Source of the DNA: Microbacterium hydrocarbonoxydans
GTDB taxonomy: Bacteria; Actinomycetota; Actinomycetes; Actinomycetales; Microbacteriaceae
Direction of reading: 5' to 3'
Length of the DNA: 64,000 nucleotides
NCBI RefSeq assembly: GCF_904831005.1
Contig: NZ_LR882982.1
Coordinates: forward strand, 3,038,001 to 3,102,000
Shown: positions 11,306 through 63,440 of the stretch, in pieces
Numbering within the stretch: position 1 is the stretch's first letter
Layout of the letters: the number at the start of each line of letters is the position of its first letter
Translations under genes and position numbers: made by a program
Notes under the pieces: model-generated
What the model saw: only the letters and a program-made list of their open reading frames with translations
What the model was told of the DNA's origin: nothing
Databases searched by the model: none

Positions 11306-11410
11306 CGTTCCGGTCGCACTTCGTGCCGCCGGGTCTCGCGGTGGGCGGCACGAACTGCGACGGGAGTGGTCTGGGTCTCGCGGTGGGCGGCACGAAGTGC
11401 GACGGGAACG
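11306..11410. repeat. Long inverted repeat with tandem 42-bp units
   Basis: A 25-bp arm at 11306-11330 (begins CGTTCCGGTCGCACTTCG) is matched at 24 of 25 positions by the inverted arm at 11386-11410. A slightly diverged copy of the second arm lies one 42-bp period earlier, starting near 11344. It sits in the 241-bp gap between the epimerase-like gene and putA, and could form a strong stem in RNA or DNA. Confidence 0.85.
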
Positions 11411-26661: not shown

Positions 26662-26726
26662 CCACGACCCGAGGCGATGGCGCAGATCGCTGCGGGATTC
26701 GGGCTCGTCGTGGGAGTGTATGAGTG

Positions 26727-28205
26727 ATGAGCGAGTACGTCGAGGTGCAGACCGCCGCGGGGCGGGTCCGAGGGCGCTGGCGCCCGATCGCAGCAGGTCA
26801 CGGTGCCCCGAGGTCGGCCGCGTTCCTCGGCATCCCCTTCGCCGAGCCGCCCGTCGGAGAGCTGCGATTCGCTGCTCCGGTGCCCCATGCGGCATGGGAT
26901 GGAGTGCGTGATGCCCTCGCCTTCGGGGCGACCGCGCAGCGCGGCGATCAGGGAGAGACTCTCATCCCCGAGCCGAGTGTCGCGGGCGAATCGACCCTCA
27001 ACGTCAACGTCTTCACTCCCGAACCCGCCCCTGACCCTGCCGCCGCGGGACTCCCGGTGCTCGTCTGGATCCACGGCGGTGGCTTCACCTCGGGATCCCC
27101 CGCCAGCCCCTGGTACGACGGTCGCAGCTTCAACCGGGACGGCGTCGTCACCGTGACGATCTCGTACCGTCTCGGCTTCGAAGGCTTCGGGTGGATCGAC
27201 GGTGCACCGACGAACCGCGCCGTGCGCGACTGGCTGCTGGCGCTCGAATGGGTTCAACAGAACATCGCTGCCTTCGGGGGAGATCCCGCTCGCGTGACGA
27301 TCGCCGGACAGTCGGCCGGCGGCGGGGCCGTTCTCACCCTGCTGGGGATGCCGGGGGCGCAGCACCTGTTCCATGGGGTCTACGCGATCTCCGCGGCGCT
27401 CACCGACGTCGCATCCGGGCGATCCGAGGCGTTCGCCCGCGCGCTCGCCGCCTCTGCAGGGGTCGAGCCGACCGTGAGCGGATTCGGTGGCGTCGACGAG
27501 CTTCACCTGCTCGAACTGCAGAAGAGCGCCACACGGCTGAGCCCCAGCGGCATCGCGACGCTCGTCGACGCAGGGCTGCCGCTCGGTCCCGTGGTCGACG
27601 GCGACCTCATCGAGCGGCCCACGCGAGAATCCCTGCGCGCCGGTGTCGGTGCCGACAAGCCGCTCGTGCTCGGTGCCACCGACGACGAGTTCACGATGGT
27701 CTTCGGCGGAGCCGCCGCGACGGCGTTGAGGTGGGTTCCTCGTGCGACGCTGCTGAACCGTCTCGGGCTGCCGAAGAGCATCCGGGCCGACTACCTCGCC
27801 GACAACGCCGACATCGTGCGCCTGGGCAAGCCGCGCCTTGCGGGCAGGGTGCTCACCGACCGGATGTTCCGTGCCGACGTGCTCCGCGTCGCGGCAGACC
27901 GCGGCGATGCATCCACCTGGGTGTATCGGTTCTCGTGGCCCTCGGGGCGCTTCGGGTACGCCGAGCACTGTCTCGATGTGCCGTTCTTCTTCGACTGCCT
28001 CGACGGACCGTCGATGCAGGCGCTGGCCGGACCGAACCCGCCGCAGCAGCTCGCCGACGAGGTGCACGGCGCTGCGGTGTCGTTCGTCACCACGGGCGAC
28101 CCCGGCTGGCAGACCCATGAGGGAGATGCCGGAGTCGTGCGCGTGTACGACATGCCCACGCGCGACGTCGCCGATGCGTATCGGTCGGTGCGGTCGCTGG
28201 TCTGA
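26727..28205 (+). CDS. Type-B carboxylesterase
   Basis: 492-residue carboxylesterase/lipase of the type-B (cholinesterase-like) family, usual length. Seen: GIPFAEPPVGELRF, oxyanion loop VWIHGGGFTSGS, nucleophile elbow TIAGQSAGGGAVL with the catalytic Ser, LGATDDEFTMVF supplying the acid, and YAEHCLDVPFFFD with the catalytic His. No signal peptide, so probably intracellular ester hydrolysis; substrate unknown. ATG 26727 is preferred to the GTG three bases upstream. It is followed by a 411-bp repeat-filled gap. Confidence 0.92.
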   Translation: MSEYVEVQTAAGRVRGRWRPIAAGHGAPRSAAFLGIPFAEPPVGELRFAAPVPHAAWDGVRDALAFGATAQRGDQGETLIPEPSVAGESTLNVNVFTPEPAPDPAAAGLPVLVWIHGGGFTSGSPASPWYDGRSFNRDGVVTVTISYRLGFEGFGWIDGAPTNRAVRDWLLALEWVQQNIAAFGGDPARVTIAGQSAGGGAVLTLLGMPGAQHLFHGVYAISAALTDVASGRSEAFARALAASAGVEPTVSGFGGVDELHLLELQKSATRLSPSGIATLVDAGLPLGPVVDGDLIERPTRESLRAGVGADKPLVLGATDDEFTMVFGGAAATALRWVPRATLLNRLGLPKSIRADYLADNADIVRLGKPRLAGRVLTDRMFRADVLRVAADRGDASTWVYRFSWPSGRFGYAEHCLDVPFFFDCLDGPSMQALAGPNPPQQLADEVHGAAVSFVTTGDPGWQTHEGDAGVVRVYDMPTRDVADAYRSVRSLV

Positions 28206-28245
28206 GGCGACTGCTCGCCGCTCTCGCGTTCGTCCCCTTTTCTGC

Positions 28246-28372
28246 CTTCCCTGTCTCCCTGCCTTCCCTGTCTTCCCTGTCTTCCCTGCCTTCCCTGTCT
28301 TCCCTGCCTTCCCTGTCTTCCCTGCCTTCCCTGTCTTCCCTGTCTTCCCTGTCTTCCCTGTCTTCCCTGTCG
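28246..28372. repeat. 10-bp minisatellite (CTTCCCTGYC), about 12-13 copies
   Basis: A run of 10-bp units CTTCCCTGTC or CTTCCCTGCC, strongly pyrimidine-biased on the plus strand, directly after the carboxylesterase gene and directly before the first 74-bp inverted-repeat pair. The unit is not a multiple of three and no real gene spans it, so copy-number change would not alter a protein. Base composition differs sharply from the surroundings. Confidence 0.9.
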
Positions 28373-28377
28373 GAATT

Positions 28378-28525
28378 TGGCACCTGTTGTCGGAATTCCT
28401 CGCGGATAGCGACCACAGGTGCCAACTCTGTGCGGCGCGGCCCATCCGGTGTGGCGCCTGTTGTCGGAATTCCTCGCGGATAGCGACCACAGGTGCCAAC
28501 TCTGTGCGGCGCAGCCCTGGCGCAC
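28378..28525. repeat. Two 74-bp direct repeats, each with a 15-bp inverted repeat (left flank)
   Basis: Two 74-bp units starting at 28378 and 28452. Each contains TGGCACCTGTTGTCG (first unit 28378-28392; TGGCGCCTG in the second) and the inverted CGACCACAGGTGCCA (first unit 28410-28424), a possible stem of 14 of 15 pairs around a 17-bp core. The same element lies in opposite orientation at 29673-29820, on the other side of the DUF559 gene. Together with the minisatellite it fills the 28206-28616 gap. Confidence 0.9.
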
Positions 28526-28616
28526 TCTTCGTGCACACAAGGTCGATGTGAGGCGTCGTCCACAACGGGTGTGCCGCCCGCCCGGCAGAGGGGCCGGTTG
28601 CGGGCACCATCGCCTC

Positions 28617-29609
28617 ATGTCGCGTCATCCCACACCTCTTCCCGCCTCGCTCGGACGCGTGTTCACTCCAGAACAGGCGCGCGCAGCCGGAGTGAGCCCG
28701 CGCCGACTCCGAGCGCAGGATCTCGAGCACCTGCACCGCGGGCTGATGGTCGTCACCCCGGATGTCGCGGACGAGGGGATGCGCGCAGAAGACGCCGATA
28801 CGCCGCTGGCCCGTGATCGAGCTCAGCGCAGAGAGATGCGTCGTCGGGCTGAGCTGTACCGGCCCCTCATGGTGCGCCATGCGTTCTTCGTCGGTCGCAC
28901 GGCGGCCGGATTCTGGGGGCTCCCGGTCGACTGCTCGGGCGAACTCGAGGTGGGGGTCGCTGCTCCTCATCGTGCTCCGCGTAGATCGCGCATCGCGGGA
29001 CGCCAGGTCGCCGCGACGCTCGTGTCGGTGCGTCAGCTCGACGGCTTCGCTGTGGCGAGTCCGGCATCCACCTGGGCGATGCTGGCGACGGATCTTTCTG
29101 TGCGCGAGCTCGTGCAGGTCGGCGACGCGCTGGTGCGCATTCCCAGGGACGGCCTCGCACGACTCAGGCGAGACCTCAGACTGTGTTCCGTCGAGCAGCT
29201 TCGCGCCGCGATCGACGCAGGACGACGGCATGGTGCAGAGCGTCTTCGAGCGGCGATCGAGGCGATCCGCGTGGGAAGCGCGTCGCCGCTGGAGACGGAC
29301 TGCCGCCTCGACGCTGCGACAGACTGCCTCCCGGAACCGACTCTCGATGTAGAGATCCGTGATGCCCGGGGTCGACTTCTCGGCGTGACCGAGATCGCTT
29401 ACCCGGAGTTCGGAGTGCTCGTCGAAGTCGAGGGCGATCATCACCGCACGTCACGCGATCAGTGGCACCGCGACATCGAGAAGTATGCGGCCTACGCGAT
29501 CGAGGGGTATGAGGTCGTTCGTCTCACATCCGACCACATCCGAGGGCCGCATCCGATGGCGACCGCACTCATCCGTGATGCGCTGGTGCGCCGCGGCTGG
29601 CGCCCCTGA
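28617..29609 (+). CDS. DUF559/AbiEi-like protein, possible PD-(D/E)XK nuclease fold
   Basis: 330 residues. N-terminal part (about 1-60; GRVFTPEQARAAGVSPRRLR then LEHLHRGLMVV) resembles the winged helix of AbiEi-type IV antitoxins. The middle (about 85-200) resembles the AbiEi C-terminal region (FFVGRTAAGFWGLPV, ASPASTWAMLATDLSVRELV). The last ~100 residues resemble DUF559/Vsr-like endonuclease folds: EIAYPEFGVLVEVEGDHHRT, then EKYAAYAIEGYEVVRLTSDH. Acidic residues in VEVEGD could be catalytic. Such proteins are common in Microbacteriaceae without assigned function. No partner toxin is adjacent. It is enclosed by oppositely oriented 74-bp repeats. CACCAT 6 nt before the ATG is a weak -10. Confidence 0.75.
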   Translation: MSRHPTPLPASLGRVFTPEQARAAGVSPRRLRAQDLEHLHRGLMVVTPDVADEGMRAEDADTPLARDRAQRREMRRRAELYRPLMVRHAFFVGRTAAGFWGLPVDCSGELEVGVAAPHRAPRRSRIAGRQVAATLVSVRQLDGFAVASPASTWAMLATDLSVRELVQVGDALVRIPRDGLARLRRDLRLCSVEQLRAAIDAGRRHGAERLRAAIEAIRVGSASPLETDCRLDAATDCLPEPTLDVEIRDARGRLLGVTEIAYPEFGVLVEVEGDHHRTSRDQWHRDIEKYAAYAIEGYEVVRLTSDHIRGPHPMATALIRDALVRRGWRP

Positions 29610-29650
29610 CGCCCCTGACGCCCCTGGGCCCCTGAGGCCCCTGGGGCTCC
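29580..29650. repeat. Short GACGCCCCT-type tandem repeats
   Basis: About five 9-bp units of the type CGCCCCTGA/CGCCCCTGG run across the last codons and stop of the DUF559 gene into the intergenic region, suggesting that the 3' end of the gene was built by repeat slippage. Confidence 0.7.
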
Positions 29651-29672
29651 GACGGTCGCGACGCCGCTGAGT

Positions 29673-29820
29673 TGGCACCTGTGGTCGCAATTCGGGCTTT
29701 GATCCGACAACAGGTGCCATATGAACTGGTCCCGACGCCGCTGAGTTGGCACCTGTGGTCGCAATTCGGGCTCCGATCCGACAACAGGTGCCATATGAAC
29801 TGATCGCGACGCCGAACCCC
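29673..29820. repeat. Two 74-bp direct repeats with 15-bp inverted repeats (right flank, opposite orientation)
   Basis: Units begin at 29673 and 29747, again with a 74-bp period: TGGCACCTGTGGTCG, a core of about 17 bp, then CGACAACAGGTGCCA. Read on the minus strand, the arm variants and the outer sequence (GGTGCCAACTC...GCGGCG) match the left-flank element, so the two pairs face each other across the DUF559 gene. The rest of the 29610-29925 gap holds CG-rich tandem units of about 13-15 bp (GACGCCGAACCCC, 29808-29900). Confidence 0.9.
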
Positions 29821-29925
29821 GCGCGACGCCGAACCCCGACGACGAACCCCGACGCCGAACCCCACCCGACGCCGAACCCCGCCCGACGCCTAACCTCGCG
29901 CGACGAGGAACACAGCACGAACGCG

Positions 29926-30273
29926 TCAGGCGATGTAGACCTTGCGCAGTGTCTCGGTCACCGTCCACGCGGTGCGCTGACCGGCGGCCAACCGCACGAC
30001 AGATCCTGGACCGACCTCGATCGCCGGCAGGGCGGGCTCGACGAACTCGATCCGCGCCCGACCCGCCAGCACCACGAAGACCTCGTCGGCCTCGGTGTCG
30101 GATGCCGTGCCGGGCGTCATCTCCCAGATGCCGACCTCCACCTCGCCGAGCGTCGCCAGCGCCTGCACCGCCGTCGTCGGGCGACCGATCAGCACGTCCT
30201 CCACGGGCAGCGGCGCGTGGTCGAGCGAGAGCGCCGCAGCATCCACTCCCGCTCCCGGCCCGAGCTCGCTCAC
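29926..30273 (-). CDS. Cupin-domain protein
   Basis: 115-residue single-domain cupin from a GTG at 30273 that overlaps the oxidoreductase stop (GTGA). Seen: GIWEMTPGTASDTEADEVFVVLAGRA, corresponding to cupin motif 1 with Glu but without the classical His pair, and IEVGPGSVVRLAAGQRTAWTV for motif 2. It is close to the cupin_3/ethanolamine-utilisation EutQ-like group often fused or linked to FAD oxidoreductases of amine catabolism. The function is unknown; it may bind a product or metal. The longer in-frame extension to 31428 lies over the oxidoreductase gene and is rejected. Confidence 0.85.
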   Translation of the reverse strand: MSELGPGAGVDAAALSLDHAPLPVEDVLIGRPTTAVQALATLGEVEVGIWEMTPGTASDTEADEVFVVLAGRARIEFVEPALPAIEVGPGSVVRLAAGQRTAWTVTETLRKVYIA

Positions 30274-46428: not shown

Positions 46429-46534
46429 GCGGGGTCGATTGCGCATCGGAAACGGCTGAAGTAGATGCGCAAGTGGCCCCGCCTGGCCGCGCAGGCCGCG
46501 CGGGGGAACGGCAGAAGTGGCCCTGCGACCGAGC
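46429..46534. repeat. Inverted repeat GCGGGGTCGATTGCGCATC plus partial copy
   Basis: Arm 46429-46447 is inverted at 46464-46482 (GATGCGCAAGTGGCCCCGC) around a 16-nt loop. A further partial copy (GGCAGAAGTGGCCC) is at about 46510-46523. It fills the gap between the gal regulator and the convergent DeoR-LacI chimera gene. The arm resembles those at 56511-56631 and 63298-63440 (GGGGTC..TT..GCATC) without being identical. Confidence 0.8.
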
Positions 46535-56510: not shown

Positions 56511-56631
56511 GTGGTGCGGGGTCAGTTCTGCATCCGCCGCGTGGTGCGGGGTCAGTTCTGCATCTACCGCTCGGTGCGGGGTCGATATCGCATCCCGATC
56601 GCCTGATTCGGATGCAGAAGTGACCCCGCAC
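56511..56631. repeat. Three 30-bp direct repeats plus an inverted copy
   Basis: Units at 56511-56540, 56541-56570 and 56571-56600 (core GTGCGGGGTCAGTTCTGCAT; the third is diverged), followed by an inverted copy at 56609-56631 (GGATGCAGAAGTGACCCCGC). No unique spacers, so not CRISPR. Same layout as 63298-63440. With the promoter and operators at 56669-56736 it accounts for the 349-bp gap before the oxidoreductase gene. Confidence 0.9.
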
Positions 56632-63297: not shown

Positions 63298-63440
63298 GCG
63301 GGGTCACTTTCGCATCGCGGATGGCGGGCGGGGTCACTTTCGCATCCCGGACGCCGGGCGGGGTCACTTTCGCATCCGGATGCCAGTCGGGGTCACTTTC
63401 GCACGGGAACGGGGCATTTCGGGTGCGTTTTTGACCCCGC
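63298..63440. repeat. Four copies of GGGGTCACTTTCGCATC with an inverted copy
   Basis: Direct copies start near 63300, 63330, 63360 and 63389 (30, 30 and 29 bp apart). An inverted, diverged copy (GTGCGTTTTTGACCCCGC) follows at about 63423-63440. Period and layout equal those at 56511-56631. No unique spacers, so not CRISPR. Confidence 0.9.

Follow-up and report, generated by a model that had tools for sequence, protein, structure and literature searches.

In the gene/repeat systems called REPtrons, a gene for a REP-associated tyrosine transposase (RAYT, or TnpA-REP) lies between copies of a dispersed intergenic palindrome, the repetitive extragenic palindromic (REP) sequence or the bacterial interspersed mosaic element (BIME). 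According to PMC3733652 and PMC6006769, there is about one RAYT gene per repeat family and several families may occur in one genome; BIMEs are described in PMC2817692 as arrays of alternating orientation. Here we analyse a locus of similar layout in a stretch of 64,000 bp from Microbacterium hydrocarbonoxydans (contig NZ_LR882982.1, positions 3,038,001 to 3,102,000), called the window below; coordinates refer to it unless given as genome positions. The gene of this locus, P0001, encodes a predicted nuclease and stands between arrays of a short palindrome, family F1. An initial annotation of the window had proposed that a putative nuclease framed by repeats replaces a RAYT here. This idea has gained ground from six further genomes in which orthologues adjoin these units, from flanked homologues outside the genus (18 of 20), from the tracking of protein clades by elements, from empty sites and from the absence of any Y1 transposase match in the genome at E≤0.001. 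Our preferred explanation, with a probability of roughly 0.6, places P0001 in a large nuclease family of actinomycetes (AbiEi-like/Vsr-type) in which many genes are coupled to short palindromes of their own. By analogy, the best reading would be a REPtron-like arrangement in which an unrelated nuclease serves its own palindromes. No description of this arrangement was found in the open-licence PubMed Central literature, which most subscription papers lie beyond, and none was found there of a repeat association for the Vsr, DUF559 or REase_MTES_1575 nuclease families.

The gene and its palindromes in one genome

P0001 (28617..29609, plus strand) encodes 330 amino acids. Its AlphaFold2 model has a mean predicted local distance difference test score of 89.8. 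Residues ~5-218 are predicted to fold like AbiEi antitoxins (6y8q; Rv2827c, 1zel), and the C-terminal part (~221-328) to have an I-Bth0305I/Vsr-type catalytic fold. The protein is thus predicted to be an AbiEi-like part fused to a Vsr/I-Bth0305I-type nuclease, in agreement with the DUF559/AbiEi-like nuclease of the initial annotation, which had suggested such a fold prediction. E226, E270, H276 and D286 (numbering of P0001) are invariant in the 28 aligned sequences. The Foldseek matches listed for P0001 also included mitoribosome proteins and nucleotidyltransferases, and families outside that list may match as well. P0001 has no Pfam match above the cut-off. A RAYT was considered for this genome and rejected, as the Y1 transposase family PF01797 had no match in it at E≤0.001.

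Each flank of the gene carries two F1 units. The left pair lies on the plus strand at 28378..28424 (arm 28378-28392, core 28393-28409, arm 28410-28424) and, 74 bp further on, at 28452..28498; the right pair lies on the minus strand at 29673..29719 and 29747..29793, also 74 bp apart, and its opposite orientation is read from the arm variants. The two tandem 74-bp units per flank reported earlier are real pairs, with the correction that each unit proper is a palindrome of 47 bp (15+17+15 nt) and that 74 bp is the period of the array. The arm sequences reported with them are as described, apart from the second left unit, whose first arm is a variant starting TGGCGCC. In the left pair one arm has GTTG and the other GTGG, and the right pair shows the same arm variants once it is reverse-complemented; the cores of the two pairs differ. 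The inverted alignment of one flank to the other scores 55.8, whereas 30 shuffles reach 12.0 at most and 313 ordinary genes 20.0, and the mirrored likeness noted in the initial annotation is thereby confirmed. When folded as single-stranded DNA, the four units give z values of -2.75 to -5.19 against shuffles. Short tandem repeats are also present around the arrays. A 9-bp pyrimidine-rich repeat (CTTCCCTGT, 28229-28377) abuts the first left unit on its left, and CCTTCCC runs are also found upstream of the array at genome position 3724502; GCCCCTGAC (29602-29650) and CGACGCCGAACCCC (29805-29900) lie on either side of the right array.

Are these repeats unique to the gene locus? This was rejected, for F1 units are dispersed in the genome. 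The 15-bp arm has 41 exact matches in the whole genome with one free position (reversed control 0) and 77 with up to two mismatches (control 13). All 41 units found in the fetched stretches of this genome are exactly 47 bp long, although cores of 12-30 bp were permitted. When loci from several genomes are taken together, the distance from TGGCACCT to AGGTGCCA, outer ends included, is 47 in 66 of 69 cases (30-70 bp permitted), and adjacent units follow each other at a period of 74 bp in 28 of 45; loci outside this genome had been chosen by a fixed-length pattern, which favours constant length. The six bases beyond each arm fit a longer palindrome of ~59 bp in the majority of units only, and in the first left unit of the window there is no such agreement. 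Among 57 units, one per cluster, pairing beyond shuffles (p<0.05) is confined to positions -4, 0, 10 and 11 of the 29 tested, and the variable positions 9 and 13 show none. Conserved arms with little covariation suit a site bound in the duplex by a dimer, which is at least as good as a purely hairpin reading of F1; the latter was set aside. Array spacings in this genome of 30-31, 42, 74 and 84 bp are near whole helical turns, and spacings of 72, 82 and 91-93 bp also occur. F1 clusters are scarce at 0.3-2.4 Mb of the chromosome (2 of 16, p 4e-4, single weak matches omitted). Families 2 and 3 look similarly distributed in cluster lists that omitted single or unlisted matches, and the GC skew was too noisy for placing the origin and terminus.

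The position of the units relative to genes bears on one alternative. On genes called by our own script, 11 of 15 gaps bearing F1 in this genome are convergent and none is divergent, while 31 of 198 unit-free gaps in the same stretches are convergent (p 4e-6); F1 gaps in loci of other species are convergent in 20 cases, codirectional in 9 and divergent in 2. The protein could be an AbiEi-type autoregulator or a defence factor, with the flanking palindromes as operators and the dispersed copies as a regulon or decoys. An AbiEi antitoxin is reported to regulate itself by binding inverted repeats (PMC7319586), and two of the more distant homologues match PADLOC AbiEi models (P0001 and L027 do not). 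However, both flanks of the gene carry elements, and the dispersed copies sit at convergent ends, not at promoters. Moreover, no AbiEii-type toxin gene adjoins P0001, which stands alone between an esterase and a cupin gene. We therefore hold this explanation to be improbable.

P0001 has three paralogues in this genome, and all four genes have flanking palindromes, one of them judged by eye. The paralogue at genome position 3112250 has GCGGGGCCASTTNNGCATC elements on either side, with 53 matches in the genome against 5 in the control, and the one at 2965364 has GTCGCASTTSGTGYCG elements on either side, with 111 matches against 2. Three of the four families are dispersed genome-wide. The suspicion that the gene is incidental, raised by paralogues without F1 units, was thus overturned, since the paralogues carry other palindromes. 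In the window itself, three half-sites of the GTCGCASTTSGTGYCG family are seen at 11313-11403, and members of the GCGGGGYCASTTNNGCAYC palindrome family, which goes with the paralogue at 3112250, at 46464, 56516-56629 and 63298-63376, several of them at a 30-bp period.

Homologues and palindromes across actinomycetes

Loci of other genomes that were fetched solely for holding F1 units turned out to contain P0001 orthologues in six genomes, at 63-87% identity. F1 units flank the orthologue on both sides in five of the six; in M. oxydans (L054) one unit abuts it and a weak one lies ~1 kb away. Copies of the unit therefore do adjoin homologues of the gene, a check that the initial annotation had suggested. 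Within the genus, 49 of 198 genomes have a P0001 homologue at E≤1e-60, and strict F1 units are present in 5 of the 7 genomes with a homologue of at least 63% identity (this genome included) compared with 2 of the 191 others (Fisher p 1.8e-7). It had also been supposed that wide occurrence of the repeats without the gene would speak against the idea. Such dispersed units do exist, and they do not weigh against coupling because REPs and RAYTs show this pattern too. A scan of species-representative genomes found F1 in 32 stretches, 25 of them in named Microbacterium and 5 in SZAS-4, a metagenome-assembled genome (MAG) that shares a locus with the Microbacterium genome G064. Single matches in a Dehalococcoidia MAG and in Nocardia are taken as chance or plain palindromes, and viral contigs gave no stretch with the fixed-length F1 pattern.

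Beyond the closest orthologues, 127 of the 394 actinomycete genomes sampled have homologues at E≤1e-25, as do 51 of the 137 genera, and many homologues at 48-57% identity have different flanking palindromes. How can coupling be measured when the palindrome changes? Inverted similarity between the left and right flanks was used, with a threshold of 19 first applied to ordinary genes, of which 2 of 313 reach it. The sample comprised 40 loci within the genus, drawn from 58 homologues of other genomes at E≤1e-60 and many of them already seen in a pilot, and 20 loci outside it, all new and taken from the upper part of the homologues listed, leaving out genes near contig ends and lower entries. The threshold was reached at 18 of the 20 loci outside the genus, at 19 of the 40 within it and at 11 of 238 control segments with matching geometry, displaced by 1.8-2.4 kb (top control 22.6). 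Direct similarity of at least 22 was found at 41 of the 60 homologue loci and 3 of the 238 controls. An element could be extracted at 39 loci, and 32 of these elements are self-palindromic beyond all of 50 shuffles. Plasmid and phage records gave three further homologues, scored with 500-bp flanks: two weak ones from Arthrobacter plasmids reach 40.0 and 35.4, and a third, whose record is labelled phage, reaches 24.4. The sequence GTTGATCNTGGAG, which belongs to another family, has 9 to 282 matches in each of eight genomes, against at most 1 in the control, and among the matches listed its sites are largely inverted pairs of fixed length. The genome G309 has two genes, each between half-sites of its own subtype.

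Element similarity follows protein identity. A score of at least 18 is reached by 0 of 480 element pairs below 40% protein identity, by a fraction of 0.39 of the 18 pairs at 60-70% and by 0.75 of the 4 pairs above 70%; the rank correlation of 0.36 was reached in 0 of 2000 permutations. As judged from the sequences, then, element type tracks protein clade. This result speaks against a second alternative, in which some other enzyme spreads the palindromes, as REP-like terminators or structural repeats, and the genes merely insert among them. The elements do sit at the 3' ends of convergent genes, and one intergenic site can hold different palindromes in different species (see below). On the other side, sister paralogues of one genome carry sister families in addition to the clade tracking, and no Y1 transposase was found in the genome. 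Nor is there any T-tract terminator at the window units: the single terminator-like T-tract site of the locus falls inside the gene. We give this alternative a small chance, similar to that of the operators above.

Empty sites and element ends

The 1.72-kb stretch with P0001 and its repeats (28206..29925) separates two convergent genes, a carboxylesterase family gene on its left (26724..28205, plus strand) and a cupin gene on its right (29926..30273, minus strand), the latter also converging on P0001. Thirty loci were read in the comparison, this locus itself being too long to count, and the esterase lies within 1.5 kb of the cupin gene in 10 of the 30. The two stop codons are 20-22 bp apart in four relatives (G197, G060, G186 and G023), while G187, a fifth relative, shows a 13-bp overlap of the two frames. 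Empty sites, which the initial annotation had proposed to look for, were thus found. Gene and repeats are found between esterase and cupin in this genome and in G125. Four relatives (L228, L230, L233 and L238) have unrelated genes at the same junction, which by eye encode a zinc-finger-like small protein (two), a MazF-like toxin-antitoxin pair and a PAP2-like protein; the junction is therefore regarded as insertion-prone.

The site of another array of this genome, at genome position 3405912, was readable in 28 relatives. The convergent stops are 1-25 bp apart in 16 of them, 48 bp in one and more than 100 bp in 11. Among these 11, G075 has two units that belong to the family of this array, another palindrome (GTTCACGATTCAGCATG and close variants) is common to five (L193, L194, L195, L197 and L220), and others have yet other repeats. 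The relative G135, with a 25-bp gap, retains an apparent single arm of the palindrome of the five.

Element ends are sharp in a family of the genome G339, where 18 of 20 sampled copies are exactly 72 bp long and the other two 71 bp. Two copies are identical over 72 bp and their surroundings are dissimilar beyond 78 bp. Over 17 distinct copies, pairing beyond shuffles is seen at positions 14-17, 19 and 22, and such compensatory changes suit a hairpin or cruciform. Length is nearly fixed within each family, at 47, 60-61 or 71-72 bp.

Do gene and flanking palindromes move together as one transposon-like unit, with lone palindromes as leftovers or non-autonomous derivatives? The oppositely oriented arrays and the otherwise intact esterase-cupin junction of five genomes that lack the 1.7-kb stretch would fit this, but it is the least probable of the three alternatives and unlikely, given that the close orthologues seen are all in an esterase or cupin neighbourhood, that palindromes far outnumber genes and that the G339 element, of another family, has no target duplications at 20 copies. 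The cassette suggested in the initial annotation must therefore be modified: what is dispersed seems to be the palindromes, with the gene as their apparent resident source.

Proposed mechanism and comparison with known systems

Sequence comparison thus indicates that gene clade and element family are coupled, that the repeats are dispersed, that elements are gained or lost at orthologous sites and that element length is nearly fixed. Spread of the palindromes is probably the work of the nuclease itself. As a dimer, its N-terminal AbiEi-like domain might read the two conserved half-sites of the palindrome, and the C-terminal nuclease might nick or break the palindrome itself, the cruciform extruded from it or a target that lacks it. 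Repair or strand transfer would then copy the palindrome into convergent-gene gaps, or keep it there, and such gaps may serve as harmless insertion sites.

Several points weigh against a nuclease that spreads its own palindromes. To our knowledge, no nuclease of the restriction-endonuclease fold joins DNA on its own. Target-site duplication, the mark of a miniature element (MITE) of a DD(E/D) insertion sequence, amounts to 0-2 bp at the 20 G339 copies, which is the chance level, and the F1 empty sites are too diverged for this comparison. The F1 cores vary between arrays of this genome, so recent copying of whole units is not seen in it. Against a strict rule of coupling, two genomes (G005 and G014) have strict F1 units and no gene at E≤1e-60. 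At the homologue loci, 21 of the 40 within the genus fall below the inverted threshold, though a few sub-threshold loci show decayed units on inspection; L132 passes it by what is apparently an alignment of coding sequence, and self-palindromy is not clear for 7 of the 39 elements extracted. For the paralogues, the flank score at 2965364 (L028) is 13.6 with 400-bp flanks and 25.8 with 500-bp flanks. The palindrome of L026 is the one assigned by eye (inverted 14.2, direct 30.8), and no further copy of it was recognised in the 664 kb of this genome that were covered.

A broader proposal is that these AbiEi-like/Vsr-type nucleases form a mobile-repeat system across the actinomycete class, as sequence-specific 'palindrome homing' enzymes, each spreading and maintaining its own palindrome of fixed length at convergent gene ends, with new pairs arising by divergence of paralogues. 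We consider the odds of this to be about even. If true, many DUF559/AbiEi-like proteins would gain a function, abundant palindromes in actinomycete intergenic regions would be accounted for, and the 39 loci from which an element was extracted would offer dozens of natural pairs of enzyme and site for direct study of repeat spread.

How does the arrangement compare with known systems? The predicted catalytic fold is that of the EDxHD homing endonuclease I-Bth0305I. Unlike the latter, P0001 is a free-standing gene of a bacterial chromosome (introns and inteins were not looked for), has an AbiEi-like N-terminus and lies between copies of dispersed palindromes. Residues ~5-218 resemble, by prediction, the antitoxins of type IV toxin-antitoxin systems; in contrast to AbiE systems, a nuclease domain is fused at the C-terminus and the AbiEii partner is missing beside the gene. 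The closest likeness is to REPtrons. Many genes of the P0001 family stand among copies of an intergenic palindrome that is dispersed in the genome, each with its own repeat family and several pairs per genome (the L026 palindrome being an exception), and the arrays at P0001 alternate in orientation as BIMEs do. The differences are that the predicted protein is an AbiEi-like and Vsr/I-Bth0305I-type nuclease, with no HUH Y1 transposase, the defining enzyme of RAYTs, found, and that palindrome length is nearly fixed within each family. Nuclease genes between their own palindromes look like an undescribed way for repeats to spread. In the literature consulted, REP-like repeats are tied to HUH transposases, while here an unrelated predicted nuclease shows a similar logic of one gene and one repeat across a bacterial class.
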